Assembly (NCBI GenBank): GCA_001800285.1
Contig: MGVC01000016.1
Coordinates: 1 to 64,000, forward strand
Direction: 5' to 3'
Source: Elusimicrobia bacterium RIFOXYA2_FULL_39_19
GTDB lineage: Bacteria > Elusimicrobiota > Endomicrobiia > CG1-02-37-114 > XYA2-FULL-39-19
DNA: 64,000 nucleotides
Numbering within the stretch: the stretch's first letter is position 1; each line of letters starts with the position of its first letter. The notes beneath the pieces were generated by a model, which saw nothing but the letters and a program-made list of their open reading frames with translations, was not told the DNA's origin and did not search any database. Shown piece by piece: positions 3,897-56,921 of the stretch. The translations under genes were made by a program, and so were the position numbers.

Positions 3897-4022
3897 GAGA
3901 AGATTGTTTCACGTAACTATAAAATGAAATCTAAAACAAAAGAAATCGTCACAAACTAAACGCTAAATTGGACATTAGTGAAGCAGAAACAATATTAAAT
4001 AAACAAGGCAGGAGATACCAGT

Positions 4023-17483: not shown

Positions 17484-17526
17484 TTTACATTTATTTTACT
17501 AAGTTTTTAAAAAGTTGTACTATAAT
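17484..17526 (+). promoter_or_regulatory. Shared surface-operon promoter module, copy 1
   Basis: TTTACAT (17484-17490), AAGTTTTTAAAAA (17501-17513) and TATAAT (17521-17526) occur with gaps of 10 and 7 bp. The same three blocks with the same gaps are at 32416-32458. No standard -35 hexamer stands 17 bp before the -10, suggesting an activator or alternative sigma factor. It drives the operon starting at 17573. Confidence 0.7.
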
Positions 17527-17572
17527 GTTAGTAGAAGATAATAGTTTTTAAAAACTGCACGAGGTGAAATAT

Positions 17573-20500
17573 ATGTCAAACATAAAAAAAGCCCTGATTG
17601 CTTCTACTCTCACAATAAGTTTAATCTGTTCCATGTTAGCCCCTTCCTATGTATATCCTGCAATAGTCAATAACGGCCCCTACATTTCCTGCGTAACTCC
17701 TGATTCTGCAGTAATTACCTGGCAGACAGATACAAATGTAACTACCACAGACAATATAGTGTACTATGGTTTAACTTCAGCCTATGGCAGTTCACAGGCA
17801 GCCTTCAAAACAGAAACAGCTGTGGGTACCGGCAGAACCTGTTATATACACAGCGTAAAACTTTCCGGGCTGGGCTCAAACACTACTTATTTTTACAAGG
17901 TACTATCCAGCACCATAACTGACGATAATGGCGGTTCCGGGTATTATTTCAAAACATTCCCTCCCGCAGGTACTGCTAACTTCAAGTTTGCAGTAATAGG
18001 CGATACGCGCCGGGGAAATGAAAGTGGCGTTACTTCTTCAAATAAATGGGGTGATTCGCTCTGGGCCATCAGAACGCTCCGCGGTTTATATACAACTGAA
18101 TCAGAGGTTCCCTTAGTACTGAATGTTGGCGATGTGGTAGCCAGCGGCCAGGATTTTCTTTACTGGAATTTTGCAAACCAGCTGGGGGCAGACCATACCG
18201 GCACGCTTATACCCACGCCTTCCGGAAACGTGGGCATGTTTAACCGTATATTTAATTCAGCGCCCTATAAACTTTTATCCCAGAAATGGATGCCAGTTGC
18301 CAAAGGCAATCACGAAACTATGGATGGTTCAGATTTTTACGCTAACGTGTTTGAAAACCCCTATACCGGAAATGGTTTAGGAACCAGCACAGACGAAAAA
18401 TATTATGCGTTTGATTACTGTAATGCAAGAATAATTGTATTAAATCATGGAGCTAGCAACACTGATAATAGAATTGGTTGGGCTCATACCTTGGTTACTG
18501 CTCAATATACTTGGCTGGAAAGCGAGCTTGTTGCGGCCAGGGCCGCCAATAAATGGATAATAGTAATGGTCCACCAAGCCCCGTTTCTTCCTTTATTGAG
18601 TTCAAATAAAACAAATGACGGCTATATGTTTTTTCTGGATGCATATGTGCTTCCTCTATTTCAGCAATACCAGGTGGACCTGGTTTTTAGCGGCCATGCG
18701 CACATATTCTGGATGGCAAAAAATCCATTGTTTATTCAGGGAAATGTTTCAGGGGCTCCAAACGGTTCACCAACCCCAGCGGTGGAAGAACGGTCCAGTG
18801 GGACCAGATACATTGTAAATGGAACGAATTTGAAAGCCCTACATGATTTTCTCTCTCCGGTAGTTGGGGATGACCCGCGCACCTTGGTATGTGATGATAA
18901 TGGAAGTGACGGAGAGACAGCCCCATATGACAGCTCTCATACCCATAAAACTAAATACTACGACCTGGATGTAGTAACCAGCGGCGGTGGTTTTACTTCT
19001 CCGGAAATACCTGTCTATAACGGAGTAACTGCCCCCAGCCCTACCTATGTAACTGTAGAAATTAACGGCGACCAGTGCACAGTAACCTGCAAGGGCATGT
19101 ATAACAACAGCTGGTCAGTGGATAACCAGAACCACGCACCGCAGGTATTTTACCAGATGACTTTCAGCAGGACTAACACTTCAAAGACTATTTCAGGCTA
19201 TGTTAAGGAAGGGACAACCGGAATAAATAATGTTACCGTAACCTTAAGCGGTTCAAGCAGTAACAGCTACACCACTGCCAGCGACGGTTTCTATAGTTTT
19301 AGTGTTTCAACCGGCGGCAATTATACAGTAACTCCAGCCAAGACAAATTATAGTTTTACCCCTGCATATAATAGTTATTCAAATCTGTCTGCTGACCAAA
19401 CCAGCCAGAATTTTACCGGCGGTTATACCGGCCCGGTTTACAGTATCAGCGGCACCGTAAGAGACAGCAGTGCTATAGGAATTAATAGCGTAACCATGAC
19501 CGTGTCCGGAGACACAGCTACAGTAACCACAACAGACAGCAGTGGTATATACAATATCTCTAACCTTAGGGCAGGAACTTTTACCCTTACCCCTACAAAA
19601 AGCGCCTATACGTTTGTTCCGTCAAATAAAAGTTACAGCTTAACCAGCGATCAGGCAAACCAGGACTTTACCGGCAGTGTGCAGTCTTCCAGCGTTACGC
19701 TTGTGACAGGTTTTGAAAGCCTAACAGACCTGACAGCCAATTCCGGCGGTGTATCAACAATAAATTTAAATACCAGTAATATAACACAGGGTAATTCATC
19801 AATAAAACTGGATTGTACCGGCGGCAGTTATCCCGGGGTGAGCATAGACGGTACTGCCTTGAGCCTTAAAAATTGGACTAATTCATACACTGCCGGAATG
19901 ACCTGGCTGATGTTTGATGTATATAATCCCGGTTCAAATGTCAGTTTTGATTATTTTATAAGAAATGAGTCATTATGCAGGTATAATAAATATGGCAATG
20001 CATTGGAAAATGGCTGGAATACAATCAGATTGGACCTGACCCAGGCAACCACCTTACAAAGTAATTGGGATATAGACACAATAACTCTTTACCTGGATGC
20101 TTCTGAAGTGACCCTGCCCGTAAGTTTATATTTTGACAATATGCGTATAAGCAACAGCAGTACCACTGTTCAGGAAGCTCCGCCGGCTTATTACAGTATC
20201 AGCGGAACCATAAGAGACGGCAATTCAGCAGGAATTTCCGGTGTAACAGTAGGGCTCAGCGGAAGCGGCAGTGAAAGCAAAACAACAGATGCCGTCGGAG
20301 CTTATTCCTTTGGTTCATTAGTAAGCGGAAATTATACCGTAACACCCGTTAAAACAGGCTATAATTTTAATCCGATAAATATAATTTGCACCGGTATAAG
20401 CAGTAATCAGGCCAACCAGAATTTTACCGGTACTATTATTCCCGGCCCGGTTTATAGTATCAGCGGGACAGTTATAGATACCAATGGAACAGGCCTTGTA

Positions 20501-21286
20501 AATACGGCTATGGTTTTAAGCGGCAGCAGCAGCAGCGGCACCATTTCAACAGATTTAAACGGTGAATACACATTCAGCAATTTATCAGGCGGCAGTTACA
20601 CCATAGTCCCGGCTAAAACCGGCTGGGAATTTACCCCTGTGCAATGGGCCGGCATACTTACAGACAATCTGTGGATAGATTTCATAGGCAACAGCACGGC
20701 TCCAATAAAATATATGATTAGCGGTGCAGTAAAAGATGCAAACAATACAGGTTTAACAGGAGTTTTGCTGACCCTGGTAAGTAATTCCGGTACCAGTTAC
20801 AAGTCAACGGACAGTAATGGTAATTTTTCATTTGTAAACCTGATTAACGGGAATTATACAATTACACCCAGCAAAAACGGCTGGACTTTTGACCCTGCCA
20901 AAAGGGCGTACCAGGACTTAACTTCAACCCAGGCAGCGCAGAACTTTGCGGGCAGTTTAGTGGTTGTTGAGCCTGTTGTGCAGGAAGAAGTACCAGTAGG
21001 TAATATGAAACTTATAGACAACAAAATAGATGTAAAAAAAGAAACTACCACAGGAGTCAGGGTAATCTATAACATCAGCAACGCCGGAAAAATACGGGTA
21101 AACGTGTATGATACCTTTGGCAGGCTGGTAAAAGTAATAACGGATGAAGAGAAAAATGCCGGCAAGTATGAGGCAAACTGGAACGGAAAAGACACAAACG
21201 GAGTAATATTGCCTACAGGGATATATTTAATACATATAACCGGTCCCGGAATAAACCAGACAAGAAAAGTCTGCATTGTGAAGTGA
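17573..21286 (+). CDS. Surface metallophosphoesterase with carboxypeptidase-regulatory repeats and FlgD-like CTD
   Basis: A 1237-aa exported protein with a signal peptide ending near PSYVYPA. Next come a purple-acid-phosphatase-type Fn3 domain (about 35-130) and a calcineurin-like phosphoesterase (about 140-400: GDTRRG, NVGDVV, KGNHET, VMVHQAP, FSGHAHIF; all metal motifs present). Then two carboxypeptidase-regulatory-like domains, a carbohydrate-binding-like beta-sandwich ending YFDNMRISN, three more such repeats, and a C-terminal FlgD-like Ig domain ending KVCIVK. The ATG at 17573 is chosen over GTG at 17564, which lies in the ribosome-binding site GAGGTG. The CTD suggests export by a PorV-dependent route. 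Substrate: a phosphate ester, unknown. Confidence 0.85.
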   Translation: MSNIKKALIASTLTISLICSMLAPSYVYPAIVNNGPYISCVTPDSAVITWQTDTNVTTTDNIVYYGLTSAYGSSQAAFKTETAVGTGRTCYIHSVKLSGLGSNTTYFYKVLSSTITDDNGGSGYYFKTFPPAGTANFKFAVIGDTRRGNESGVTSSNKWGDSLWAIRTLRGLYTTESEVPLVLNVGDVVASGQDFLYWNFANQLGADHTGTLIPTPSGNVGMFNRIFNSAPYKLLSQKWMPVAKGNHETMDGSDFYANVFENPYTGNGLGTSTDEKYYAFDYCNARIIVLNHGASNTDNRIGWAHTLVTAQYTWLESELVAARAANKWIIVMVHQAPFLPLLSSNKTNDGYMFFLDAYVLPLFQQYQVDLVFSGHAHIFWMAKNPLFIQGNVSGAPNGSPTPAVEERSSGTRYIVNGTNLKALHDFLSPVVGDDPRTLVCDDNGSDGETAPYDSSHTHKTKYYDLDVVTSGGGFTSPEIPVYNGVTAPSPTYVTVEINGDQCTVTCKGMYNNSWSVDNQNHAPQVFYQMTFSRTNTSKTISGYVKEGTTGINNVTVTLSGSSSNSYTTASDGFYSFSVSTGGNYTVTPAKTNYSFTPAYNSYSNLSADQTSQNFTGGYTGPVYSISGTVRDSSAIGINSVTMTVSGDTATVTTTDSSGIYNISNLRAGTFTLTPTKSAYTFVPSNKSYSLTSDQANQDFTGSVQSSSVTLVTGFESLTDLTANSGGVSTINLNTSNITQGNSSIKLDCTGGSYPGVSIDGTALSLKNWTNSYTAGMTWLMFDVYNPGSNVSFDYFIRNESLCRYNKYGNALENGWNTIRLDLTQATTLQSNWDIDTITLYLDASEVTLPVSLYFDNMRISNSSTTVQEAPPAYYSISGTIRDGNSAGISGVTVGLSGSGSESKTTDAVGAYSFGSLVSGNYTVTPVKTGYNFNPINIICTGISSNQANQNFTGTIIPGPVYSISGTVIDTNGTGLVNTAMVLSGSSSSGTISTDLNGEYTFSNLSGGSYTIVPAKTGWEFTPVQWAGILTDNLWIDFIGNSTAPIKYMISGAVKDANNTGLTGVLLTLVSNSGTSYKSTDSNGNFSFVNLINGNYTITPSKNGWTFDPAKRAYQDLTSTQAAQNFAGSLVVVEPVVQEEVPVGNMKLIDNKIDVKKETTTGVRVIYNISNAGKIRVNVYDTFGRLVKVITDEEKNAGKYEANWNGKDTNGVILPTGIYLIHITGPGINQTRKVCIVK

Positions 21287-21399
21287 TTTCAGAAACGCTA
21301 AACTATAGATACTAAACGCCAAACTAAACAAAGGCGAAAAGATCCGTCTTGCAGAGACAGACGGGACAAGCGATAAAGTCAAAAGTTAACATTAATAAA

Positions 21400-24300
21400 A
21401 TGAAAAAAATAACCCATCTCTTAATTTTCAGTTTATTTTTTACATTAATTTCAGGGTTTGCCCAGGGGCAGAGCCTGGATCCTTCTTTTTACTGGAACAT
21501 GCAAAGCACCGGCCCGGTACCACCGGCATTAAGCTCAGACCCTTTTACACCTAATGTCGGTGGGGGTACCATAACTACCAGAGGGCAGGTTGGAACTGCC
21601 AACTGGCCTACCGCTGTTGCCGGTTATTCAGGCAATGGCATAATCTTTGATAACAGATATGAAAAGATTGATATCATGACCGCATCCGACACTTACAGGA
21701 ACATAGACCCGGACAAAGGTAAAATTAATTTTTGGTTTAAACCTACCTGGAATGGTGTTTATTCGGATAGTGCTTTGTATTTTTTTGAAGTGAAGCATTC
21801 CTCAAAATTCTTTTCTTACATTGGGGGCACGGGAGTACCTGTTCAATTTGCGGTTAATGGAACAGGTAATGCTGCTTATTATATAGCAACGGCCGCGAAT
21901 ACTTATTGGGACAGCAACCAATGGTATTATTTTGAATACTGGTGGAATAAACCTGCAAATGGATTTGGCATTTCTATCAGCAGTAATGGTGCGGTATTCG
22001 CCAGCGGTACCAGAAGCGGCGTGTGGACCTGGGACATTTTCTTTAGTACAGACCATGTAATGACAATAGGAGGTACCTCGTTAGGAACGGGTTATAACCA
22101 TTGCAGGGGAACTATGGATGAATTTAGTATATCTTTGCCCAGCGCGCCTGCATCAATAAATAATTTATCAGCCCTACCCGGCACTGAAGTAGGAAGTCTC
22201 AGCCTTGCCTGGACAACTTCCGGTAAAGACGGAGCTTCATATGATTTGCCTGCCGGAAGCCAGTTTAAAATTCAGTATAATACAAGCGATTCGGTATTCT
22301 GGTCTACCGCCAGCGCCCAGCTGGCCCTTTCAACCAGTGTGGCTGTAGGTACATCAGTAAATTGGGTTTTAACCGGATTAACAAGAGGCGCTACATATTA
22401 TGCCAGGGCCTGGGTCCGGGATGAAATGAACAACTGGTCCGGAATATCTAATGGGGCAACTTCTTATGCGACACCTGACGGTATAGTTCCAAATCCTATC
22501 ACGGATCTGGCTGCTGCTACCGGAACCAACGGCGGCGAAATTAATTTAAGCTGGACTAGCACTGGTGACGACGGCGCATCCGGCAATTTTGATTCAGGCA
22601 GTGCCTACATATTTAAACTTTCCACTTACGCAATATCATCTGACGCAATTTTCAATATATCCAGCGATGTAGCTAAATTCAGCCCGGTACCTGCGCCGTC
22701 AACAGCGCGGACCGTAACAAATATAACTCTAACCGGGTTAATGTCCGGTGTAACCTATTATTTTTCAATAAAAGCGCAGGATGAACAGCCCAACAATTCA
22801 TCTTTAGGCAATTGCGCTACCGCGTATGCGCAGGTAGATATGACAGCACCGTGGGCAATAACTGACCTTACGGCTGTTCCGGGTTCCGTTGAAAACACTA
22901 TGGTTTTAAGCTGGACCAGTCCCGGTGATGATGGTATAGCGGTAGATTTTACCGGTAACGGAAGTTTCATAATAAAATATACCAGCGGAGCAATCGGCAG
23001 CATTGGAGATACCAACTCCCCGGCCCGGTCTGACACAAATTTCAACAACGCATTTTCAGTTTCAAATTTCAGCCCTATTCCTGCCGCCAACACTGCGTTT
23101 ATAAGAAGAACCATGACTTTAACCGGCTTGCCGGCCGGCACAACATTTTATTTTGCCCTAAAAACCCGGGATGAAGTGCCTAATACTTCCTTATTATCTA
23201 ACGGCACTACGAATTGGTCTATGTATGATGCGTCCGCTCCTTCCTCTGTAACAGCTTTAGCTATTTTCAGCGTAACCTCAACAACAGTCTTATTAACCTG
23301 GCCCAGCCCTGGCGATAACGGCACTACCGGCGCTATAACAAACGGCTGGTACTGGATAAAATATACAACATCAAGCACCGATACCTGGGATACGGCGCCT
23401 TATGGAATAGCGTGGGCAACCAGCGCGCCGGTAAATCAGGCGCAAAACTATTTATTAACAGGCCTGAACTCTGATACGAGTTATTATATTGCGCTAAAAG
23501 TCGGCGACGAAATGCCTAACTGGAGCGATATGAGCAATCCTGTGCTGAGCCGGACCCTGGACATAACAAACCCCTCCGCTACAGCTGATTTTAATGCAGT
23601 TACAGGAAACAATGAAGGTGAAATAAATTTAAGCTGGAGCGCGCCCGGAGATGACGGCACCACAGGCATTTTACAAACCGGTTCAATGTATAAAATCCAA
23701 AGCTCAACCTGGCAGGCAGTAGCCTGGTCTACAGGCAGCACACAAATAAATATTTCAACCACTTCTTTCCCGCTTACTACTAACCACTTACTTCTTACGA
23801 GCTTAGCCGGCGGTGTTACCTATTATTTCCGTATCTGGACTAAAGATGAATGGGACAATTATTCCAATATAAGCAATGGAGCAACAACTTATGCGCAAAC
23901 AGATAAAATAATGCCGGCGTCAATAACAGATTTATCAGCCCAACCGGGAAACAATGAAGGTGAAATAAATTTAAGCTGGACTTCAACCGGTGATGACGTC
24001 CTTACAGGCAATTTTGGCGCAGGCAGTATTTTTGATATCAGGTATTCTACGGATATATTAAACTCGCCGGCAATAGATAACGCCAAATTTGATTCTGCCG
24101 GTTCAGCCAGCATATTCAGCCCTGTGCCCGTACCCAATACTGCAAAAACAAAAGTAAATTTAACCCTGACCGGGCTTACTGCCGGTGTAACCTATTATTT
24201 TGCAATAAAAGTAAAAGATGAAGCCCAGAATATTTCCCTGTTAGAAAACGGTACTACCAGCTGGGCCCAGGCAGACACTGTTGCGCCGTCAGCCGTAGCT

Positions 24301-26064
24301 GATTTAACAGCCGGCCCCGGTTTGGCGGAAAAAGAAATTGTTTTGCGCTGGAGCACACCCGGCGATGACGGTACCTCAGGTCAGTTAATTGCGGGCAGTG
24401 AGTTTAGAATTCAACGTTCAACAAATTCAGGCCAATCCTGGGATATTAATAACGCCCAGCTAATTATTTCAACAGCAGGCCTTAACCCCCAGACTTTGGC
24501 CTCCCGGGTTATTACCGGGTTAAGCGCAAACACAACCTACTATTTCCGTATCTGGTCTAAAGATGAAAGAGGAAATACTTCTGCAATTTCAAATGTTACT
24601 ACAGGATATTCCTGGGTGTTGTTTGAATTAACTGCGCCTAACGCAGTAACAGACCTGTCTTATGATTCGCTGGGCAATAATTCATTACGGTTGCACTGGA
24701 GTGCTCCCGGGGATGACGGTACCCAGGGGACAGCTGTTTCATATCTGGTTAAATATGCCACTTACCAGCTAACTGCCGGCAATTTTAATTCTGCAAACAA
24801 TCCTGCGCAACAGGAACCGGCCCCCCAGGTTTCGGGAACCAAAGAATATATGATAATAAGCGGTTTAACCGAAGGAGCCAGTTATTATTTTGCAATTAAA
24901 ACCGCTGATGATATACCCAACTGGTCGGGCCTGTCAAATGTTTTATCTGTAAAAACCCTGGATTTAGTCAAACCGGTTATTATAAGCTGGGCGCCGGTAA
25001 TTACTTCAGGAATTAATATTTCTACCGCGCCTACCGTACTGTTTAGTGAAAACATGAATTTTGCCAGCATGGACGGCCGGATAATTATGAAAGCAATAAA
25101 AGATAAAGACGGCAATGCAATAAACCAGGCGGTAACGGTAACTCTCAGCTATTCATCAGCGGATAAAAGAGTAACCCTGACTCCTGCCGGTACCGGTTTA
25201 AACAGTAATTATGAATACGAGGTAATAGTAGCCACGGGTATTACGGATACAGGCGGAAATTCAATAGAAAATTCTCTGGAATTTACTTTTTCAACCCTGA
25301 TGGACAGGACAGAAAGCAATACATTTAAAAGCAGTGACGGGAAAATAAAGGTAACCATACCGGCAAATACAATGACCATAAACGGTTACATAAAAATCAG
25401 TACAAATGCATTAACCGGCCCGTTAAGCATTAATCCAACTGTTATTAACACGGCAAATAGTAAAATAGATACGGCTGGTAACAAATTTTCTTATGCCCTG
25501 GAAGGCAGTATAATTGAAATTATTTATTATGATGTAACAGATACTCCTGTAACAACGGCTCAGTCCAGTAATATGGAGGTGTATCTGGCTTACAATGATT
25601 CAGAAAATGACGGTATTGTTGATGCAGTAACCCCGCAGGTGAAAGCTAAAACACTTATAATGTATACCCTGAACGAACAGAGCCAGGCCTGGGAAAAACT
25701 AAGCGGTATAACTTTAGATACGGTCAACAAGCTGGTTAAGGGAGAAACAAGCCATTTTTCCGTATTCTGCCTGATAGGCGGGGCAGATAATGCCTTAGAT
25801 GAGGCTTATGCCTACCCCGTTCCGTTCCGGCCGGATTTGGGGGATACCCAGGTAACCTTTACAAATTTAAGTTCAAAGGCAACTATAAAAATTTATAATG
25901 TTGCCGGAGAATTGGTGAAAACCATAGAAGAAACTGACGGTGATACCAAAGCTTTCTGGGATGGGTTGAATGAAAAAGGAAACAAAATAAGCAGCGGGTT
26001 ATATTTTTACTATATTAGAAATGATATAGAAAGCAAAAAAGGAAAATTGTTAATAGTGAAGTAA
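21400..26064 (+). CDS. Giant surface protein: LamG, eight Fn3 domains, Big_5-like domain and FlgD-like CTD
   Basis: A 1554-aa protein with a signal peptide (MKKITHLLIFSLFFTLISG). A LamG/concanavalin-like domain (residues about 50-230) is followed by eight tandem Fn3 domains of about 110-125 aa, each opening with a D-L-x-A-x-x-G pattern and containing W-x-x-P/T-G-D-D-G and Y-Y/F-x-I/R. A Big_5-like domain (ISWAPVITSG ... VLFSENMN), a further beta domain and a CTD ending KGKLLIVK complete it. I start at 21400, because an upstream ATG at 21349 lies in an intergenic repeat and would spoil the signal peptide. Likely an adhesin or glycan-binding protein; no enzyme domain is seen. Confidence 0.85.
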   Translation: MKKITHLLIFSLFFTLISGFAQGQSLDPSFYWNMQSTGPVPPALSSDPFTPNVGGGTITTRGQVGTANWPTAVAGYSGNGIIFDNRYEKIDIMTASDTYRNIDPDKGKINFWFKPTWNGVYSDSALYFFEVKHSSKFFSYIGGTGVPVQFAVNGTGNAAYYIATAANTYWDSNQWYYFEYWWNKPANGFGISISSNGAVFASGTRSGVWTWDIFFSTDHVMTIGGTSLGTGYNHCRGTMDEFSISLPSAPASINNLSALPGTEVGSLSLAWTTSGKDGASYDLPAGSQFKIQYNTSDSVFWSTASAQLALSTSVAVGTSVNWVLTGLTRGATYYARAWVRDEMNNWSGISNGATSYATPDGIVPNPITDLAAATGTNGGEINLSWTSTGDDGASGNFDSGSAYIFKLSTYAISSDAIFNISSDVAKFSPVPAPSTARTVTNITLTGLMSGVTYYFSIKAQDEQPNNSSLGNCATAYAQVDMTAPWAITDLTAVPGSVENTMVLSWTSPGDDGIAVDFTGNGSFIIKYTSGAIGSIGDTNSPARSDTNFNNAFSVSNFSPIPAANTAFIRRTMTLTGLPAGTTFYFALKTRDEVPNTSLLSNGTTNWSMYDASAPSSVTALAIFSVTSTTVLLTWPSPGDNGTTGAITNGWYWIKYTTSSTDTWDTAPYGIAWATSAPVNQAQNYLLTGLNSDTSYYIALKVGDEMPNWSDMSNPVLSRTLDITNPSATADFNAVTGNNEGEINLSWSAPGDDGTTGILQTGSMYKIQSSTWQAVAWSTGSTQINISTTSFPLTTNHLLLTSLAGGVTYYFRIWTKDEWDNYSNISNGATTYAQTDKIMPASITDLSAQPGNNEGEINLSWTSTGDDVLTGNFGAGSIFDIRYSTDILNSPAIDNAKFDSAGSASIFSPVPVPNTAKTKVNLTLTGLTAGVTYYFAIKVKDEAQNISLLENGTTSWAQADTVAPSAVADLTAGPGLAEKEIVLRWSTPGDDGTSGQLIAGSEFRIQRSTNSGQSWDINNAQLIISTAGLNPQTLASRVITGLSANTTYYFRIWSKDERGNTSAISNVTTGYSWVLFELTAPNAVTDLSYDSLGNNSLRLHWSAPGDDGTQGTAVSYLVKYATYQLTAGNFNSANNPAQQEPAPQVSGTKEYMIISGLTEGASYYFAIKTADDIPNWSGLSNVLSVKTLDLVKPVIISWAPVITSGINISTAPTVLFSENMNFASMDGRIIMKAIKDKDGNAINQAVTVTLSYSSADKRVTLTPAGTGLNSNYEYEVIVATGITDTGGNSIENSLEFTFSTLMDRTESNTFKSSDGKIKVTIPANTMTINGYIKISTNALTGPLSINPTVINTANSKIDTAGNKFSYALEGSIIEIIYYDVTDTPVTTAQSSNMEVYLAYNDSENDGIVDAVTPQVKAKTLIMYTLNEQSQAWEKLSGITLDTVNKLVKGETSHFSVFCLIGGADNALDEAYAYPVPFRPDLGDTQVTFTNLSSKATIKIYNVAGELVKTIEETDGDTKAFWDGLNEKGNKISSGLYFYYIRNDIESKKGKLLIVK

Positions 26065-26139
26065 TAAGGCAGCGATTAAGCGATGAAGCGATGAAGTGGA
26101 AGGCAGTAAAGGAAAAGACGAACAAAGTAAGAAAAAAAT

Positions 26140-27267: not shown

Positions 27268-27341
27268 GTATGCTGTCCGTCTTGCACAAGCAACCGGGAT
27301 AAGCGATGAAGTTAAGAAGTATTATTTAAAAGGATAATAAG

Positions 27342-28268: not shown

Positions 28269-28308
28269 ACGGCAAATTGTAAGCTGGAAGAGAGGAGTAG
28301 TTAATAAA

Positions 28309-32361: not shown

Positions 32362-32415
32362 GCGCTGTTATTATCTTCCGACGAAAACCCCCTGAAAAAT
32401 AAAATTTACAAAGAG

Positions 32416-32458
32416 TTTACATGGCGTTTATCAAGTTTTTAAAAAAATATACCATAAT
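32416..32458 (+). promoter_or_regulatory. Shared surface-operon promoter module, copy 2
   Basis: TTTACAT (32416-32422), AAGTTTTTAAAAA (32433-32445) and CATAAT (32453-32458) repeat the module at 17484-17526 with the same 10-bp and 7-bp gaps, while the gap sequences differ. It lies 46 bp before the start codon at 32504 and opens the second surface operon. Confidence 0.7.
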
Positions 32459-32503
32459 ATTATTGAGAGAAGAAAAAAAGCTGCAGCGGAGGTAAGCGTT
32501 AAA

Positions 32504-35500
32504 ATGAAAAAAATTTATCTGTCACTTTTACTGGTTGCCTGTTTTTTTAGTTCTGTTTTTGGAACAGGTGAGTTTTTAGGTACCTGGGCCGTTCCTAACG
32601 GCCCGATGGATATTGCCATAGACAGCAGCGGCAATAAGTACGTCTGTAATAATTGGGAAATAATGATTAAGTATAATTCAAGCGATGTGCTGGTTAGCAG
32701 CTGGAATGTGGTTGGCAGCGGCAACGGCGTAGCCGTGGACAGCAGTTATGTGTATAATGGCCAGCAAAGAGGCCCGTCTGCCGGAAATTTCAGCCAGGTT
32801 GTCAGTTATTCTCTTTCAGGTACCACCACTACAACCTGGGGAACTACTCCGGGGTCAGGCGCCGGGCAGTTTAACGGCCCTTACAATGGATTGGCGTTAG
32901 ACAGTACCTATATTTATGTTACGGATACCGGCAATAATAGAATACAGAAACTAAATAAAAACGGCACGTTTGATACCGGCTGGGGCACGGGTTTAGATAT
33001 ACCGCAGGGAATTGCAGTAGACAGCAATTATGTATATGTGTGTAATACCGGTAATAATGCGGTTATGAAGTATAATAAAACAGGTACAGCCCAAACCTTC
33101 AGTGTAGCTGGTGACAGCATTGCTGTTACTAATCCGATTGATGTAGTTGTTGACAGTTCCGGCAGGATATATGTTTTAAGTGCTACCGTAACTGATGTTA
33201 AGGTAATAGTTTATGACCCTAATACCGGGTCCTCATTAGGGCAATGGGGAAGTGTAGGGACCGCTACGGGAGAGTTTAATTTAACCGATACTACCACTAC
33301 AGTTGAAGGCGGCCTGGGTATAGACAGTTCAGACAGAATCTATGTGGCGGATTTCGCTAACAACAGAATTCAGTTTTTCCAGGGGTACACAACCGGCAAT
33401 ACCTATTCTATAAGCGGTTATGTGCGCGATGTTACGGCTACAGGTTTAGCAAATGTTACGGTAGTATTATCCGGTTCAGCAAATTCAAATACCGCAACAG
33501 ATAATTCCGGATATTATATATTTACCAGTTTAACCAGCGGGGCTTACACAATAACATCCAAGAAAAACGGTTATAGTTTCAGCCCGCCCAACAGACCCTT
33601 CAGCTCTTTAGCAGCTAACCAGACAGCCCAGGATTTTACAGGAACAAGTTTACTTAATCAGTATGTAACCCAGTGGGCCGTAGGCACGTCTACAGATAAT
33701 GGGCCCATAGATGTGGCTGTAGATTCCAGCGAAAATATTTTTGTATGTGACTACTGGGACCAGCTTTTAAGGTTTGACAGCAGCAAAGTGATTATTACCA
33801 GCTGGACTTCGCCTGCAAATGCCTATCCGTATGAATTACAGGCAGATAACAGTTACGTATATGTCTGCCAGACTGATACCATGAGAAAGTATTCCAAAGA
33901 CGGCGCAACAGTGGTAACTGTCTGGGGAACAACCAGAGGAAGCGGAAATGAACAGTTTGACCGGGCGCGTGATTTGGATATAGATGGAAGTTATATTTAT
34001 GTATTGGATGCTTTTACCAATAACAGGGTTCAAATACTAACCCCGGCAGGCGGTTTTTATGGCAGATGGAGCTATACAGGCTTAACGCAACCGGAAGCCC
34101 TGGCAGTAGATTCTGATTATGTATACATAGGGGCTACCTGGGATAATGTAGTTAAAAAATATGCAAAATTAACCGGTGTGGAAGCCGCCGGATTTACTGC
34201 TCCCGCAATAATCCGTCCGAAAGATTTGGAAACGGATAATAACGGGCATTTATATGTGCTTCAATCTTCCCACGTAGTAGTGCTGGATGCCGCTACGGGC
34301 ACGCAGTTAGCAAAATTCGGCGAAGCCGGAACCGGCAACAGCCAGTTTAATAATGCCAGCGGCATAGGCGTAGATTCAAACGGCAATCTTTATGTATCCG
34401 ATTATGGCAACGCCAGAGTTCAGGTATTTACTGCTTACAGCGATTATTATTCAATCAGCGGCTATGTAAAAAACGCCAGCAGTGCAGCTCTTTCAGGAGT
34501 GACAGTAACCTTAAGCGGAGCCGGCAGCGGCAGTTATACAACCGGCAGTGACGGTTATTATATTTTTGTTAATTTAAGCACCGGTACTTATACAGTAGCA
34601 CCAACAAAAACCAACTGGAGTTTTTCCAGCTGGACAGGTTCTTTCAGCGGCAATGTTACACAAAATTTCTTTGGAACGTCTACGGTTCAGCTATATACCT
34701 TAACTGGTTATACGCGTGACGGTACCGGAGCCGCCATAGGCAGTGTAGCTATTGCTTTGACAGGGCCGGAGAACATTAATACAGTTTCTGGAGCAGACGG
34801 TTCTTATTCCATTCCTGATTTACCTTCCGGTACTTACAATGTTACGGCAACCAAAACCAACTGGTCTTTTTCGGCCTGGTCAGCCGCCAGTATAACCAGC
34901 AATGCAACTCATGATTTTACAGGTACGGCGCTGGTAACATTTTATTCCATCAGCGGCTATATTAGGACAGCCAGCAGTGTGGCAATAAACGCAGTAACTC
35001 TGACTCTGGCAGGAGCCGAAGCCAGCAGTACCACCACCAACAGTAACGGTTTATATACATTTTCAAATTTACCCGCCGGCGGCTATACTATAACACCTGC
35101 AAAAACAAGCTACTCATTTTCACCTGCCATCTGGACAGGTACAGTCAGCAACGCCGACTTAACACAAAATTTTACAGGTACGGCTCAGGCTTCAACCGCA
35201 ACCGTAACCTATACCTTAAGCGGGTATGTAAAAGACGGCAGTAATGTTGCGGCCGTGGGCGTAACCTTAACTTTAACTGGAAGAGCCAGCGGCACCACAA
35301 CTACAGACAGTAACGGCTATTATGAGCTGACAAGTTTAAGTACCGGTACTTATACTCTTGTACCAACTAAAACCAGCTGGACTTTTATTCCTGAAAACTG
35401 GACCGGTACTTTGACCGGCAATTTATCTACGGATTTTATAGGAACTAACAATACTACAACTGCACCTGCTACAGCAGAGGTTCCTTTCAAATTAGTTAAT

Positions 35501-35761
35501 AATATGATTGATCCTAACAATAACGAAAAAATAACCATTCAATATATGGTAAACCAGGGCGGCAGATTAAAAATAGAAATATATGATTTAAAAGGCCGGC
35601 TGGTAAAAAGAGTTTTTAATGATAATGTAAGTGCTGGCGCCGGCAGCGTAGACTGGGACGGCAAAGACAAAAAAGACTTAGTTCCTTCTTCAGGCATCTA
35701 TCTGGTATATATTGAAGGGCCGGGAATAAAACAATATAAGAAGATGTGTATATTGAAGTAA
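32504..35761 (+). CDS. Surface NHL-propeller protein with carboxypeptidase-regulatory repeats and FlgD-like CTD
   Basis: A 1085-aa protein with a signal peptide (MKKIYLSLLLVACFFSSVFG). Two NHL-type beta-propellers (about 25-300 and 385-645) show repeated GIAVDS and YVTDTGNNRIQ/YVSDYGNARVQ motifs. One carboxypeptidase-regulatory-like repeat separates them and four follow, then a CTD (IEIYDLKGRLVKR ... GIYLVYIEGPG) ending KKMCILK. NHL propellers bind proteins or polymers; no enzyme motif is seen. GGAGG precedes the ATG. It is the first gene of the second operon and pairs with the PorV-like gene at 35962. Confidence 0.85.
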   Translation: MKKIYLSLLLVACFFSSVFGTGEFLGTWAVPNGPMDIAIDSSGNKYVCNNWEIMIKYNSSDVLVSSWNVVGSGNGVAVDSSYVYNGQQRGPSAGNFSQVVSYSLSGTTTTTWGTTPGSGAGQFNGPYNGLALDSTYIYVTDTGNNRIQKLNKNGTFDTGWGTGLDIPQGIAVDSNYVYVCNTGNNAVMKYNKTGTAQTFSVAGDSIAVTNPIDVVVDSSGRIYVLSATVTDVKVIVYDPNTGSSLGQWGSVGTATGEFNLTDTTTTVEGGLGIDSSDRIYVADFANNRIQFFQGYTTGNTYSISGYVRDVTATGLANVTVVLSGSANSNTATDNSGYYIFTSLTSGAYTITSKKNGYSFSPPNRPFSSLAANQTAQDFTGTSLLNQYVTQWAVGTSTDNGPIDVAVDSSENIFVCDYWDQLLRFDSSKVIITSWTSPANAYPYELQADNSYVYVCQTDTMRKYSKDGATVVTVWGTTRGSGNEQFDRARDLDIDGSYIYVLDAFTNNRVQILTPAGGFYGRWSYTGLTQPEALAVDSDYVYIGATWDNVVKKYAKLTGVEAAGFTAPAIIRPKDLETDNNGHLYVLQSSHVVVLDAATGTQLAKFGEAGTGNSQFNNASGIGVDSNGNLYVSDYGNARVQVFTAYSDYYSISGYVKNASSAALSGVTVTLSGAGSGSYTTGSDGYYIFVNLSTGTYTVAPTKTNWSFSSWTGSFSGNVTQNFFGTSTVQLYTLTGYTRDGTGAAIGSVAIALTGPENINTVSGADGSYSIPDLPSGTYNVTATKTNWSFSAWSAASITSNATHDFTGTALVTFYSISGYIRTASSVAINAVTLTLAGAEASSTTTNSNGLYTFSNLPAGGYTITPAKTSYSFSPAIWTGTVSNADLTQNFTGTAQASTATVTYTLSGYVKDGSNVAAVGVTLTLTGRASGTTTTDSNGYYELTSLSTGTYTLVPTKTSWTFIPENWTGTLTGNLSTDFIGTNNTTTAPATAEVPFKLVNNMIDPNNNEKITIQYMVNQGGRLKIEIYDLKGRLVKRVFNDNVSAGAGSVDWDGKDKKDLVPSSGIYLVYIEGPGIKQYKKMCILK

Positions 35762-35786
35762 GCGCTAAACGCCAAACAAAAAACAA

Positions 35787-35894
35787 CGATGAAGTCCGTC
35801 TTGTAAAAGCAGACGGGACAAGCGATGAAGTCCGTCTTGTAAAAGCAGACGGGACAAGCGATGAAGTCCGTCTTGTAAAAGCAGACGAGACAAG
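35787..35894. repeat. Three 36-bp tandem repeats with hairpin potential
   Basis: Units 35787-35822, 35823-35858 and 35859-35894 are almost identical, differing by one G/A change in unit 3, and a fourth starts at 35895. Each unit holds TCCGTCT ... AGACGGGA, which can form a hairpin. The unit is 12 codons long and open in one frame, but the true gene start lies downstream at 35962. Diverged single copies occur at about 21346-21378 and 27275-27315, always just before a gene of this locus. Confidence 0.85.
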
Positions 35895-35961
35895 CGATGA
35901 AGTAACAGCGGGAGTAGCAATGAAAAAAATAAATAATAATATTGGAAGCGGAGGGAAATTT

Positions 35962-36867
35962 ATGAAAAGAATAATTCTGCTGATTTCATGTTTAATTTTA
36001 ACTGCAACATCCGTTTACAGCCAGGCCGCAAGAAGCAGTAACGTGTTCAACCAGCCTATGGGTGCAAGAGTGCTGGGTATGGGGGACGCTTTTGTAAGCG
36101 TTTCTGATGACATTAACTCTATTTGCTGGAACCCGGCAGGGTTAGGCCAGTTAAAACAGGCTGAGTTAAGCGCCACCTACGCTCCCTGGCTGATAGATAT
36201 TACCAATACATTCATCGGATTCGGCGCCCCCGGCTCAGGCGGTATGGCTTACGGAGCCGCTGTATCTATCTATGACCTTGGCAGTTTTGATCTGGTTACA
36301 GCCAACGAAGCAAAAACCATAAAAGCTGAAGTGGACCAGACCGCTATAGTTACTTTAGCCAAGAGCAATTTTATAAAAACCAATAATATGAGCTGGAATG
36401 CGGGCATAAACCTGAAATATTTATCTTCAACACTGCTGGAAGAATATAAGGCAACTACTTTCGGTGTTGATGTGGGTGTTTTGGGTTCCAGCGGAAAAAA
36501 TACGCGGGTTGGACTGGTAGTACAGAATATCGGAGGCGGTATAAAATATAAAGAAGAAACAGACCCTCTGCCTATGACTATCCGGGCCGGTGTTTCCTAT
36601 CACTTGATGAATAATGTTATACACAGAGTTACAGCTATCGGTGAAATTGCAAGGTATTACGAAGGCGATTCAAAAATGCATCTTGGTTTTGAGTACTGGT
36701 ACGCCAGATTAATAGCGTTTCGGGTTGGCTATAAGAGCGGATATGATTTGGAATCAATTACTTACGGGTTAGGAATAAATGTAAAAGGTTATCAGTTTGA
36801 TTATGGCTTTGGCGCCATGAGTGCGCTGGGCAACGTAACAAGAATGTCCTTTACTGCAAGATTTTAA
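35962..36867 (+). CDS. PorV/UPF0164-like outer-membrane protein
   Basis: A 301-aa protein; start at 35962 (MKRIILLIS) preceded by GGAGGG, giving a clean signal peptide ending SVYSQA. An in-frame upstream ATG reads through the 36-bp tandem repeats and is rejected. Signature QPMGARVLGMGDAFVSVSDD and CWNPAGLGQ; final strand VTRMSFTARF ends in Phe. It is a close paralog of the 38053 gene (shared FRVGYKSGYDL, VKGYQFDYGF). It follows the NHL CTD protein and probably helps move it to the surface. Confidence 0.82.
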   Translation: MKRIILLISCLILTATSVYSQAARSSNVFNQPMGARVLGMGDAFVSVSDDINSICWNPAGLGQLKQAELSATYAPWLIDITNTFIGFGAPGSGGMAYGAAVSIYDLGSFDLVTANEAKTIKAEVDQTAIVTLAKSNFIKTNNMSWNAGINLKYLSSTLLEEYKATTFGVDVGVLGSSGKNTRVGLVVQNIGGGIKYKEETDPLPMTIRAGVSYHLMNNVIHRVTAIGEIARYYEGDSKMHLGFEYWYARLIAFRVGYKSGYDLESITYGLGINVKGYQFDYGFGAMSALGNVTRMSFTARF

Positions 36868-36962
36868 TTTCTCACTTGATATTATATAATTACAGGCAGC
36901 AGCTTTATAATTAAAAATATACACCGGCAGGACATTTACTTTACAACAAACGGGAGGGAAGT

Positions 36963-37985
36963 ATGTTAAAAAAGAAAGAATTTATAGGTTTGACAGCAGG
37001 TTTTATGATTTGCATTTTTTTAGCTGGTTGTGCTGATTTGGAAAGAATAAATATTCCTGAATCAGAATTGCAGGCAGTTAAAGGCGGCAAGGGCGGCAGC
37101 AGTGTAAAAGACCCCTGCCCTGACTGCGGCAAATCTCTGGCTTATGCAGAGGAATATAAATTATGGTTCTGCGAAAAAGAAGGAAAATATATGGCGGAAG
37201 GTTTTGATCCGGCAAAAGCTGCCAAAAAGTTTCCTACGCCTCCGGCTAAAAAATTCCCGGTACCGGCAGCGGCGGCAAAAAAGTTTCCCACGCCTGCTTC
37301 TAAAAAAGCAACAGTTGAAAATCCCTGCCCTGACTGCGGCAAATCCCTGGCTTATGCAGAAGAATTTAAATTATGGTTTTGTGAAGGTGAACAGAAATAT
37401 ATGCCGGAAGGTTACAACCCAGCTGCTGCCCAGCCGGCAGCAGCTGTTGCGGCGCCCGTGGCAGTAGTTCCGGCCGTAGCTGCTCCAGTAATAACACCTA
37501 AAGCCTCAGCTGGCGGAGTATTGGTTTTTGGTTTTGAAGATACAGAAGGCACGGAAGCGTCTGAAAACCAGAATTGTGATTATAGTTTAAGCAGCGAATA
37601 TGTAACCCAGGGCAATAAGTGTTTTAAAGCTGAACACGGAAACAGCGCTTATCCCGGGTTTGTAGTTTTTGAGTTTGAAAAAAATGTTTTCTCAGGTTAC
37701 AAATACCTTGTTGTAGATGTTTATAATCCGGGCCCGCAGATTAAAAATTTTGCTTTTACCTTTGATAATGACAAAAACTATGGAAACGGCAGGTATACCA
37801 TGGATGATATGGTTTTAAAACCTGGAGCCAATACTATTAAACTGGACCTGACAAGAGCCCGTTCAAAACTTAAAGAAGGCCCGGAAGAAGTGGGTTTAGC
37901 TTTATTTTTTATGGACGCAGCAAATGATTCAAGCGTTACCTATCCTTTTACGCTTTATTATGACAATCTGAGGCTGGAAAACTAA
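36963..37985 (+). CDS. Lipoprotein with duplicated three-Cys motif, KFPTP linkers and carbohydrate-binding-like domain
   Basis: A 340-aa lipoprotein with lipobox LAGC (Cys23). Two copies of CPDCGKSLAYAEE...LWFC (Cys52/55/70 and 122/125/140) repeat with an exact 70-residue period, also near-identical in DNA. Between them lies AAKKFPTPPAKKFPVP and AAKKFPTPASKK. An Ala/Pro/Val linker (about 151-180) leads to a beta-sandwich (about 185-340) homologous to the carbohydrate-binding-like domain of the 17573 protein (VDVYNPG, YYDNLRLEN). The KFPTP motif also forms the tail of the PorV-like protein at 26140, suggesting a shared binding partner. GGGAGG precedes the ATG. Confidence 0.75.
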   Translation: MLKKKEFIGLTAGFMICIFLAGCADLERINIPESELQAVKGGKGGSSVKDPCPDCGKSLAYAEEYKLWFCEKEGKYMAEGFDPAKAAKKFPTPPAKKFPVPAAAAKKFPTPASKKATVENPCPDCGKSLAYAEEFKLWFCEGEQKYMPEGYNPAAAQPAAAVAAPVAVVPAVAAPVITPKASAGGVLVFGFEDTEGTEASENQNCDYSLSSEYVTQGNKCFKAEHGNSAYPGFVVFEFEKNVFSGYKYLVVDVYNPGPQIKNFAFTFDNDKNYGNGRYTMDDMVLKPGANTIKLDLTRARSKLKEGPEEVGLALFFMDAANDSSVTYPFTLYYDNLRLEN

Positions 37986-38052
37986 AATTGCCTGCCCTTG
38001 AACTACGGCTCTTCTTTTTGGAGGTCAGTTTGGAGGATTTAAGGTAAAGCAT

Positions 38053-38997
38053 ATGAAAAAAATTACTACTAAAAATATTTTCTGTCTGTTTACCATTTAC
38101 TGTTGCCTGTTTACGGTAGTTTATGCCGGAGGCCCGGGAACAACAGGCGGTATAATGCTGGCGCAGCCTGTAAGCGCCAGAGCTTCAGGTATGGGAGATG
38201 TTTTTACGGCAGTCAGTGATGATGTAAATGCTGTTTATTGGAACCCTGCCGGTTTATGCAATCTCAGCAAAACAGAATTCAGTGCAATGTACAATGACAG
38301 CTTAATGGATACAGCTTATACTAATTTAAGTTATGCAAAACCTGTAAAACTATGGGGCAGCGCTTTCGGGGCCAGTATATCTATTTTTGATGGCGGCGCA
38401 TTGGCGGTTAATTCACCTACAGGTTTTACAGAAAATGTTAAAGCACAGTATGATTATTCTGCAAGTATAGCTTATGGTAAAAAAATATTTACCAAATGGT
38501 TTAAGCAAAATGCAAATAAATGGAAACTTAATTTTGGGGTTGGTTTTAAAACATATTCTTCAACTTTGGCCCAGCAATACACGGCAGGCAGCCTGGCTCT
38601 GGATTTGGGCCTGCTTTTACAAAATAAATCAGGATTCTCTGCAGGACTGACAGTTCAGAATATAGGAAGAAATGTTGTTTATATTTATGATGAATACCCT
38701 TTACCGCAGGCAACAAAAATAGGAGCAGCCTATAAGTTTGGAAATATTTTACACAGTTATCTGGCAGGCATAGAAGCGGTTAATACGATTGATAGCGGCA
38801 CAAAGTTTCATTTGGGGGCAGAGTATTGGTATGCAAAACTTCTTGCCCTGCGAGTTGGTTATAAGAGCGGATATGACCTAGGTTCAGTGACCTTGGGTGC
38901 AGGTATTTATGTTAAAGGTTATCAGATAGATTATGCTTTTGGTGATATGGGAATACTGGGCAATACCCAAAAAATATCTTATACAATGAGATACTAA
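38053..38997 (+). CDS. PorV/UPF0164-like outer-membrane protein
   Basis: A 314-aa protein with a signal peptide ending VYAGG. Signature QPVSARASGMGDVFTAVSDD and YWNPAGLCN; last strand QKISYTMRY ends in Tyr, a valid beta-barrel C-terminus. It is most like the 35962 paralog (LLALRVGYKSGYDLGS, VKGYQIDYAFGDM). The stop is 3 nt before the next barrel gene's ATG, so the two are translationally coupled. Confidence 0.82.
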   Translation: MKKITTKNIFCLFTIYCCLFTVVYAGGPGTTGGIMLAQPVSARASGMGDVFTAVSDDVNAVYWNPAGLCNLSKTEFSAMYNDSLMDTAYTNLSYAKPVKLWGSAFGASISIFDGGALAVNSPTGFTENVKAQYDYSASIAYGKKIFTKWFKQNANKWKLNFGVGFKTYSSTLAQQYTAGSLALDLGLLLQNKSGFSAGLTVQNIGRNVVYIYDEYPLPQATKIGAAYKFGNILHSYLAGIEAVNTIDSGTKFHLGAEYWYAKLLALRVGYKSGYDLGSVTLGAGIYVKGYQIDYAFGDMGILGNTQKISYTMRY

Positions 38998-39000
38998 ATC

Positions 39001-40161
39001 ATGAAAAAAATAAAATATTTAATTATTGCTGTTTTATGTCTTTTTAGTTTTTCATCAGTAGTGAAAACCGAACTTCGCAACCCTGTATCAAATACCGGTA
39101 GCGAATCAAATTATTTAGTTGTTGAATATGGGTATGGTGAAAGCAAAACCGGTTATACTATGACAAACATAGATAAAACAGCTGATGAATGGGAAAAATG
39201 GGAGAAGGTTTATAATAAATCAGGTACAGAATCTTTTGCTATTGGCGGAAAATATCTTGATATTTTCAAGCAAAAAGGAGAACCTTTTTCTACTGGGTTA
39301 TGGTATCAATATGAAAAGCTTGACCCCCAGGAGAAAATCGGCGGTTCTACGGATGTAGATGATGTAATAAACCTTACGTTTACCAATGGATTGGGTTACA
39401 TTGCAGAAAAAAGATTTTCTGAGAATTTCAGAATAACTTTTCAGGGTGAACACAAACAATATAGTTTTGAAAAAGTACAGACCAGCGGCATAGACAGGAA
39501 AAATGTTATGAAGCTGGATTTTTTTAAAGGGTATCAGGGTGAAGCAAAAAGGTTAACCCTGGATTATACATATACAAATTATTTTGGAGAGAGCACGTAT
39601 AGTGATTCATACTATTATTCTGTTTTTACGTTTTGGAGAAGAAGCCTAAACGAACGCTGGTCCCTGGGCCTGAATATGAGAAGGAATGAATATATTTATA
39701 TTAACAAAGACCAATCTTCCTCTACAGTGAATAAATATAATAAAGAAAATTCGTATATCATGGACCTTTTATGGCCCAGTATAGAATTATCATTTCCTGA
39801 AAAAGGCATTTTAAAAGCAGTATATACATCATTCCAGCCTTATAAACTAAAAGAAAAGCTGTGTATGGACCCTAAAAAGAGTTTTAACGGTTTTTCTACA
39901 TCATTCTGGGTAGGCACAGGATTCTACATTGTTGATTTCCCTTCCTTGAGTTTTAGCGCTTCAGTGGAGTATTCACAGCATAATTTTAAAAACATTGACA
40001 GGAAAGACAATACGCTTTGGGTAGGTGCGGATTTTAGTGTGAGTCTCTTTGAGCATTGTTCAGTCGGTTTTAACGCAGGCAGAGAATATGGCGACAGCAG
40101 TATTGATACGGAAGACGAGGTTTATGATTCTCTTGGTTTCTCCACAAAGGTATGGTTCTAA
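39001..40161 (+). CDS. Outer-membrane beta-barrel protein of unknown family
   Basis: A 386-aa protein with a signal peptide (MKKIKYLIIAVLCLFSFSSV) and long runs of amphipathic strands rich in Tyr, Phe and Trp (LTLDYTYTNYFGES, WSLGLNMRRNEYIYI). The final residues GFSTKVWF form a typical beta-signal ending in Phe. Size and strand count suggest a 14-18 stranded barrel. The gene starts 3 nt after the PorV-like gene and ends 3 nt before the last CTD protein, so all three are tightly coupled. It could be a cargo-specific channel or anchor; I cannot name a family. Confidence 0.65.
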   Translation: MKKIKYLIIAVLCLFSFSSVVKTELRNPVSNTGSESNYLVVEYGYGESKTGYTMTNIDKTADEWEKWEKVYNKSGTESFAIGGKYLDIFKQKGEPFSTGLWYQYEKLDPQEKIGGSTDVDDVINLTFTNGLGYIAEKRFSENFRITFQGEHKQYSFEKVQTSGIDRKNVMKLDFFKGYQGEAKRLTLDYTYTNYFGESTYSDSYYYSVFTFWRRSLNERWSLGLNMRRNEYIYINKDQSSSTVNKYNKENSYIMDLLWPSIELSFPEKGILKAVYTSFQPYKLKEKLCMDPKKSFNGFSTSFWVGTGFYIVDFPSLSFSASVEYSQHNFKNIDRKDNTLWVGADFSVSLFEHCSVGFNAGREYGDSSIDTEDEVYDSLGFSTKVWF

Positions 40162-40164
40162 CTT

Positions 40165-41331
40165 ATGAATAAAAAAATAAAACTTATTTTTATTATTTTG
40201 TTATGGTGCTGCGCTTCAGTTTCTGCCGGTTATGAGTTCCTTTTTGAATGGAAAACAGCTGTTAAACCAAATGATATAGTCATTGACTCAGAACGGTCCA
40301 TCTGGGTGGCAGATGCGGGCCCTGAAACGCTTATTAAATATGATGGAACGGGTAATGAAGTTAAAAGATGGCCTGCTATAGGCGAACCTATGGGGATTGC
40401 CTGTGACAATGATAATTTCTATGTTGTTAAATATAGTTCCACAAATAATATTGTATGTAAATATGACAAATCAGGAAATGAGCTTGTAAGGTGGGGTACA
40501 GGGCTGGCAGGTGAAGCAACTGGCTATTTTTTCTGGCCCTGGGGTATTACAGTAGATGACAATTATGTGTATGTAGCGGACTGTTGTAATAACAGAATCC
40601 GGTTATTAAATAAAACAGGCGGTTATGCTTCTGACTGGAATATTACCGATTCCTGGCCGGTAGGCGTGGCTTTGGATAATAATTACGTTTATATTGCCGG
40701 GGTAGGCGGAACTTCAGGAGTTGTATATGTTTGCAATAAAAATGACGGATCTATTGTAACACAATGGAATACACCCTCAAAACCGTTTGATATAGACATA
40801 AATGGTGACAGCAGTAAAATATTTGTTCTCTGCGGTTCTACTGAGGGAGTAATTGTATATAATAACAGCGGTGTTCAACTGGAAAAATTTGGAGGCCCCA
40901 GAGGAACCGGAGAGGGTGAATTTACCCTGCCAAAAGAAGGTGCGGGTATATATGTAGACAAAGTACTTGGAAATATTTATGTAGCGGATAAACTAAACGG
41001 CAGGGTTCAGGTTTTTGGCAGTAAAACAGGTTTTCTTGACACTTCAAAAGGTATGCTTAAAGTTGTAAATAATGTTTTTAATCCAAATGCCGGGAAAAGC
41101 GCCTGGGTAATGTATAACATTCTTACGGCAGGTACGGTAAAAATAGAAATATATACTGTATCCGGCACTAAAGTAAAGACTCTGGTGAATGAACTTACAA
41201 GTATAGGTAATAATATTAAATATTGGACAGGCGATAATGTAAACGGAGAACCGGTCGCTCCGGGTATTTACTTTGTACACATTGAAGCTCCCGGATTTAC
41301 AGATACCCAAAAAGTGTGTGTCATTAGATGA
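40165..41331 (+). CDS. Small surface NHL-propeller protein with FlgD-like CTD
   Basis: A 388-aa protein: signal peptide (to about VSAGY), one NHL-like propeller (residues about 22-290; VADCCNNRIRLL, IYVADKLNGRVQVF) and a CTD (VKIEIYTVSGTKVK ... GIYFVHIEAPG) ending QKVCVIR. It is the minimal form of the cargo design seen in this locus, with no carboxypeptidase-regulatory spacer repeats. It is the last gene of the operon and is followed by a strong terminator. Confidence 0.85.
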   Translation: MNKKIKLIFIILLWCCASVSAGYEFLFEWKTAVKPNDIVIDSERSIWVADAGPETLIKYDGTGNEVKRWPAIGEPMGIACDNDNFYVVKYSSTNNIVCKYDKSGNELVRWGTGLAGEATGYFFWPWGITVDDNYVYVADCCNNRIRLLNKTGGYASDWNITDSWPVGVALDNNYVYIAGVGGTSGVVYVCNKNDGSIVTQWNTPSKPFDIDINGDSSKIFVLCGSTEGVIVYNNSGVQLEKFGGPRGTGEGEFTLPKEGAGIYVDKVLGNIYVADKLNGRVQVFGSKTGFLDTSKGMLKVVNNVFNPNAGKSAWVMYNILTAGTVKIEIYTVSGTKVKTLVNELTSIGNNIKYWTGDNVNGEPVAPGIYFVHIEAPGFTDTQKVCVIR

Positions 41332-41344
41332 GTTTCCTTTTTAT

Positions 41345-41366
41345 CCCCTCTTTTTTAAAAGAGGGG
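41345..41366 (+). terminator. Perfect hairpin after the surface operon
   Basis: CCCCTCTTTT pairs with AAAAGAGGGG around two T. It has no T-run after it, so it may act as an mRNA-stabilising or weak termination hairpin ahead of the main terminator at 41409. Confidence 0.5.
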
Positions 41367-41408
41367 TTAGGGGAGTTAATTAAATATAAATTAATTGCAA
41401 AGGAATTT

Positions 41409-41437
41409 AGCTTCATATTGATTATGAAGCTTTTTTT
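41409..41437 (+). terminator. Intrinsic terminator ending the surface operon
   Basis: AGCTTCATA (41409-41417) pairs perfectly with TATGAAGCT (41423-41431) around a 5-nt loop, followed by seven T. It separates the surface-protein locus from the carbohydrate locus. Confidence 0.9.
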
Positions 41438-56816: not shown

Positions 56817-56921
56817 GTCTTTTCAACTGCGCTGGTTCTGTTTAAGGAGCAATTATTATTCGAGTTTGTCGGGATTTATTTTCTAGAAGACAGCGAAATG
56901 TATTTTAATTTAGGAGGCAAT

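Follow-up and report, generated by a model that had tools for sequence, protein, structure and literature searches.

This work concerns a 64,000-nucleotide window of the genome of Elusimicrobia bacterium RIFOXYA2_FULL_39_19 (contig MGVC01000016.1, positions 1 to 64,000 of the forward strand), and a locus within it which is best read as part of a type-9-like secretion system, the bacterium appearing to carry the core of such a system (SprA, PorV and C-terminal sorting domain, hereafter CTD) outside Bacteroidota and their relatives. The window is part of one contig (C16) of a 3.09 Mb genome, 98% complete, from the class Endomicrobiia, phylum Elusimicrobiota. A first-pass annotation, made from the sequence alone, had described five CTD-bearing cargo proteins interleaved with four PorV-like barrels, and had proposed a cargo and shuttle locus of type IX secretion system (T9SS) kind in an uncultivated lineage. 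The positions of its open reading frames and the interleaved arrangement were borne out, and the proposal itself is now supported by the hidden Markov model search that it had called for. Indeed, FlgD_ig/Por_Secre_tail domains were found (Pfam, NCBIfam) at the extreme C-termini of the proteins encoded at 17564-21286, 21349-26064, 28309-32361, 32504-35761 and 40165-41331, TIGR04183 (type A sorting domain) passed its cut-off in four of them with hmmscan and in every one in a genome search, and the four barrels all exceeded the cut-off of 90 bits of NF033709 (PorV_fam, the PorV/PorQ family of NCBIfam).

The genes of this cassette lie on the plus strand. The first cargo (17564-21286, likely start 17573) joins a purple-acid-phosphatase-like metallophosphoesterase to CarboxypepD_reg repeats and to a CTD ending RKVCIVK, and has no adjoining PorV. 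The second (21349-26064, likely start 21400), with Fn3 repeats and a CTD ending KGKLLIVK, has a PorV-family barrel directly downstream (26140-27267; NF033709, 172 bits), which bears a C-terminal KFPTP tail and whose nearest kin in the tree is a PorV-TPR protein (L044). Another barrel (27342-28268, 137 bits), sister of L240_16369 in the tree and placed in the clade of the Cys-class CTDs described below, precedes the third cargo (28309-32361), in which a BNR/sortilin-fold front (NCBIfam F510_1955 glycosylhydrolase, sub-threshold) is followed by six CarboxypepD_reg repeats and the CTD. The fourth cargo (32504-35761; NHL propeller, CarboxypepD_reg repeats, CTD) has the third barrel directly downstream (35962-36867, 149 bits), in a frame which opens at 35746 with a likely start at 35962; just upstream of this start, and in open frame with it, a 36-bp unit is repeated in tandem (35783-35903, 3.4 copies, 97% match). 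The fourth barrel (38053-38997, 143 bits) lies within the cassette ahead of the fifth cargo (40165-41331), which consists of an NHL propeller and a CTD ending KVCVIR (TIGR04183, 31.6 bits). Only two of the four PorVs, at 26140 and 35962, thus stand directly behind a cargo. All the CTDs but that of 21349-26064 end in K-x-C-x-x-K/R, and this near-terminal cysteine defines what we call the Cys class.

Sorting domains, barrels and their pairing

About 73 matches to TIGR04183 were obtained in the whole genome. The CTD was strictly terminal, 95 of 104 matches to the CTD profile ending at most 3 residues from the C-terminus of the protein, and a hydrophobic N-terminal segment was present in 44 of 59 cargos, signal peptides being judged by eye. 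The CTD of the third window cargo was predicted as a seven-strand immunoglobulin-like (Ig) sandwich (pLDDT 92, pTM 0.82), which is the architecture of type A CTDs (PMC12618676), and the CTDs of PorZ, PorU and NucA were among the PDB matches. The best PDB matches, both by sequence and by fold, were nevertheless the Ig domains of FlgD and C5a peptidase, so that the fold by itself is not proof of a sorting signal; fold comparison, which had been expected to tell FlgD from T9SS CTDs, does not discriminate between them. These best matches, and the sugar-use genes which come after the locus, would fit an explanation in which the CTDs are generic FlgD-like Ig modules involved in adhesion or folding, the barrels transport small molecules for sugar-use loci, and no secretion through SprA takes place. 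We consider this explanation very improbable, in view of the position of the domain at the last residues of the proteins, of the specificity of the PorV profile and of the distribution of SprA, which are presented below.

The first-pass annotation had also stated that its proposal would fall if the barrels were FadL-type transporters that do not co-occur with CTD proteins, which did not hold. Although weak Pfam matches to UPF0164, TraF_2 and FadL-like outer-membrane proteins place them in the same barrel superfamily, the matches to NF033709 were far stronger, and the PorV profile retrieved PorV from the PDB at E 4e-33, with no FadL among the matches. A broad PorV/PorQ family has already been named in NCBIfam, so that the mere presence of PorV homologues is not new; 48 matches to this family were found in this genome. 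It should be mentioned that 30 of 100 PorV-family proteins extend more than 100 amino acids beyond the barrel, and that several of these extensions (in L044, L230, L190, L204 and others) consist of TPR repeats, which could represent a fused module of SprE kind.

Cargo and barrel genes were clearly linked. Sampling of 25 Endomicrobiia genomes gave 100 distinct PorV genes: 67 stand immediately behind a CTD gene, the two frequently overlapping by 4 bases, and 5 immediately ahead of one. In the genome under study, a CTD gene lies immediately upstream, on the same strand and within 700 bp, for 27 of 47 PorVs, while uniform placement would give about 1.6 such neighbours, whatever their arrangement. 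The two partners also diverge together: when pairwise CTD distances were compared with PorV distances over the 67 adjacent pairs, the within-genome correlation was r=0.695, versus 0.154±0.054 for shuffled pairs (0/2000), and it reached r=0.68 in this genome alone (0/5000 shuffles). Pairs with cargo fronts that are not detectably homologous still gave r=0.41, versus 0.14±0.06 after shuffling (0/2000); as cargo fronts are mixed, the CTD-PorV unit persists while the fronts change. Furthermore, the six PorVs of this genome that are linked to Cys-class CTDs all fall within one nine-member clade (support 99; 0/500 shuffles), which suggests that shuttles may be specific to CTD classes. A paralogous cassette on contig C38 (CTD, PorV, PorV, barrel, CTD) mirrors the segment 32504-41331 of the window, PorV 35962 pairing with L241_6883 and PorV 38053 with L241_5744 as sisters in the tree.

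The idea of one shuttle per cargo, put forward in the first-pass annotation, is thus sustained by the direct pairing of most sampled PorVs. In its strict form it is too strong, because many CTDs, such as that of the cargo at 17564, have no adjacent PorV, and 73 CTDs face 48 PorV matches. This excess of CTDs would also suit a canonical T9SS, in which all type A CTDs would share one PorV or a small number of them, the remaining PorVs would be ordinary FadL-type transporters clustered by chance, and motor and PorU would have diverged beyond detection. Direct linkage behind CTD genes, co-divergence and a class-specific PorV clade would however be unexpected of bystander transporters, and the absence of FadL from the PDB matches points the same way, so that we regard the canonical arrangement as unlikely.

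The SprA homologue and its distribution

The translocon, which the first-pass annotation had supposed to lie elsewhere or to be different, was indeed found elsewhere: a 1757-aa protein encoded on contig C81, and not on the contig of the window (G000:C81:59313-64586, G000 being this genome), is, as judged from profile and fold comparisons, a divergent true SprA homologue. In genome searches, TIGR04189 (SprA) gave E 3e-15 here and values as low as 4e-22 in relatives. SprA was the sole PDB match of a six-protein SprA profile (E 1.2e-23) and of a 59-sequence profile (E 1.8e-58), the latter being collinear over about 1060 positions with residues 150-1668 of the Flavobacterium johnsoniae protein. 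A 1200-residue fragment of the SprA of a named relative was predicted with a pLDDT of 82 and a pTM of 0.62, and its top four PDB matches in Foldseek were all SprA (E 8e-55 to 3e-39, TM 0.55-0.64), the next match being at 1e-7. SprA_N (PF14349) had no match in this genome and the controls were equally silent, so TIGR04189 and our own profile were used instead.

A search of 40 Endomicrobiia genomes with our own profile revealed SprA in 34, nearly always as one gene. In this genome its surroundings follow the order LptG-LptF, SprA, ComF, GAPDH, PGK, with neighbour names read from sequence alone. The named SprA relatives are Elusimicrobia and Endomicrobia bins; a genome of the same family as ours corresponds to Elusimicrobia bacterium RIFOXYB2_FULL_48_7, and more distant homologues occur in bins called Firestonebacteria, Coatesbacteria, Goldiibacteriota, FCPU426 and Zixiibacteriota. 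Some bins labelled Sumerlaeota or Clostridia (L120, L122, L141, L162) hold an Elusimicrobiota-type sprA and are probably mislabelled or contaminated. Upstream of sprA in our genome (L071:3586-9013, on C81) are encoded a FecR-domain protein, what is probably a barrel, and a TraF_2/PorV-like protein of 544 aa that contains a large insert.

The three components were distributed together. CTDs unaccompanied by PorV-like genes across relatives, an outcome raised in the first-pass annotation, were not what we observed, PorV and CTD counts being correlated over the 40 genomes (Spearman 0.88). SprA presence was associated with CTD presence (Fisher p=0.002), with the reservation that the SprA-less genomes all come from a single family and lack phylogenetic independence. 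Four of these six genomes have no CTD, one has one and G026 has six; likewise, PorV is absent from four, occurs twice in another and twelve times in G026. CTD, PorV and SprA were thus largely lost together in reduced relatives. This co-occurrence with a single-copy SprA, and the CTD and PorV genes found within the sprA loci of relatives themselves, further argue against generic Ig modules.

Several observations weigh against a type-9-like system, in addition to the FlgD-like best matches of the CTDs. The SprA homologue of this genome (TIGR04189, E 5e-25) lies under the NCBI equivalog cut-off, and in a canonical T9SS other parts could be diverged likewise. G026, an assembly of 110 contigs, has six CTDs and twelve PorVs yet no SprA, which is likely an assembly gap given this fragmentation and the presence of SprA in its genus-mates; G005 and G035 carry SprA but no CTD. 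The correlation between CTD and PorV may in part be due to the duplication of entire gene pairs or cassettes. Finally, neither the known energiser nor the CTD peptidase could be demonstrated here: with a control panel devoid of any T9SS-positive genome, GldM_4th was found in 0 of 40 genomes, GldL gave three weak partial matches and none in our own genome, and Peptidase_C25, the catalytic domain of PorU, was found in 0 of 40, the controls being silent.

Matches to NF033707 were rejected as PorU, since those listed extend over the C-terminal end of the model only. In 18 of 59 sprA loci of Elusimicrobiota type (L087-L166), a CTD-bearing Peptidase_M6 metalloprotease is encoded a short way upstream of sprA, often near a PorV-like gene (e.g., L098:5578-7221, L132:5793-7460 and L094:3677-5539), and is a candidate CTD peptidase in these relatives. 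As a universal substitute for PorU it was ruled out, being absent from our genome and from its order.

Other features of the window

Between the third and fourth barrels, a lipoprotein gene (36963-37985) encodes a lipobox-like start, two CxxC-type motifs and KKFPTP repeats, with no Pfam family above cut-off; two near-identical CPDCGKSLAYAEE...LWFCE motifs were noted in it. KFPTP/KFPVP repeats are common to this lipoprotein and to the tail of PorV 26140-27267, and no other protein of the loci examined has at least two copies. The gene at 39001-40161 encodes a probable outer-membrane barrel without Pfam match, kept in the C38 cassette (28% identity over its full length to L241:4575-5747). Beyond the cassette, the protein at 56898-59039 is paralogous to the BNR front of cargo 28309, with 41% identity along its length, but has neither the repeats nor the CTD, and therefore provides a natural pair with and without CTD. 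Three DUF3604-related proteins (43187-45226, 49441-51429 and 59236-61161) have a common, SSPVWIDVK-like C-terminus and stand among a GH106-like rhamnosidase and a sugar-binding protein. The window cargos look like polysaccharide-active or adhesive proteins beside sugar-use genes. A tandem 46-bp repeat was also found at 3799-3900 (2.2 copies, 96% match).

Proposed route and comparison with known systems

We consider it probable that the cassette of the window encodes cargos and shuttles of a type-9-like secretion system, its PorVs being matched to individual cargos or CTD classes and perhaps acting as permanent anchors. Cargos with a signal peptide would cross the inner membrane via Sec, and their seven-strand C-terminal Ig domain would then be recognised within the pore of the C81 SprA homologue. 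In F. johnsoniae, PorV docks at the lateral gate of SprA, engages the CTD inside the pore and departs together with its cargo (PMC10994853); on the model of these structures, a PorV-family barrel may here dock, bind and depart in the same way. The dozens of PorVs, many of them encoded directly behind a cargo and co-diversifying with its CTD, would make each shuttle cognate to a cargo or to a CTD class. The co-encoding of the two partners, and the failure to find a CTD peptidase of PorU type, make it most likely that the cargo remains bound to its PorV as a surface anchor, as has been proposed for type B CTDs and SprF-like shuttles, in which case a CTD-cleaving sortase would be dispensable. More tentatively, and as a less likely possibility, the Elusimicrobiota exporter could be motor-less or differently powered, each PorV being the permanent anchor of its co-encoded cargo with GldLM and PorU unneeded; PorV-fused TPR repeats could replace SprE and, in other lineages, the sprA-side M6 protease could replace PorU.

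This type-9-like system resembles the Bacteroidota T9SS (F. johnsoniae, 6H3I, 8GL6-8GLN; PMC10994853) in its SprA, by sequence and predicted fold, in its PorV, in its terminal seven-strand Ig CTD and in the signal peptides of its cargos. By contrast, it has dozens of PorVs, gene-paired with cargos, whereas a single PorV is common to all type A CTDs in F. johnsoniae (PMC12618676); its SprA has about 1760 aa instead of 2403; its host phylum lies outside the Fibrobacteres-Chlorobi-Bacteroidetes (FCB) group; and it differs by the negative motor and sortase searches reported above. Type B CTDs of F. johnsoniae offer a parallel in gene organisation, as they have cognate SprF-like (PorP-like) shuttles, often encoded by neighbouring genes and thought to be stoichiometric (PMC12618676). 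Both features of cognate pairing, a shuttle gene directly downstream of the cargo and co-divergence with its CTD, were found here, and stoichiometric, anchoring shuttles are likewise likely. The families differ, since NCBIfam and Pfam scans returned PorV-family shuttles and TIGR04183/FlgD_ig domains, not PorP/SprF-family shuttles and TIGR04131. Type-A-like CTDs would thus follow type B logic, using PorV-family shuttles.

T9SS genes have been said to be absent from phyla outside the FCB group (PMC11285876, 2024), in line with a survey that found them in Bacteroidetes only (PMC4793230), and no paper placing a T9SS in Elusimicrobiota was found in a literature search that was thin in subscription papers and preprints. 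The conservation of the SprA/PorV/CTD core across Endomicrobiia, and of SprA homologues in further phyla, argues for an older or more mobile system than thought. The expanded CTD-PorV pairs offer dozens of natural cognate pairs for learning shuttle-cargo recognition and, if motor and sortase are truly missing, this system would test which parts of the T9SS are needed for transport.

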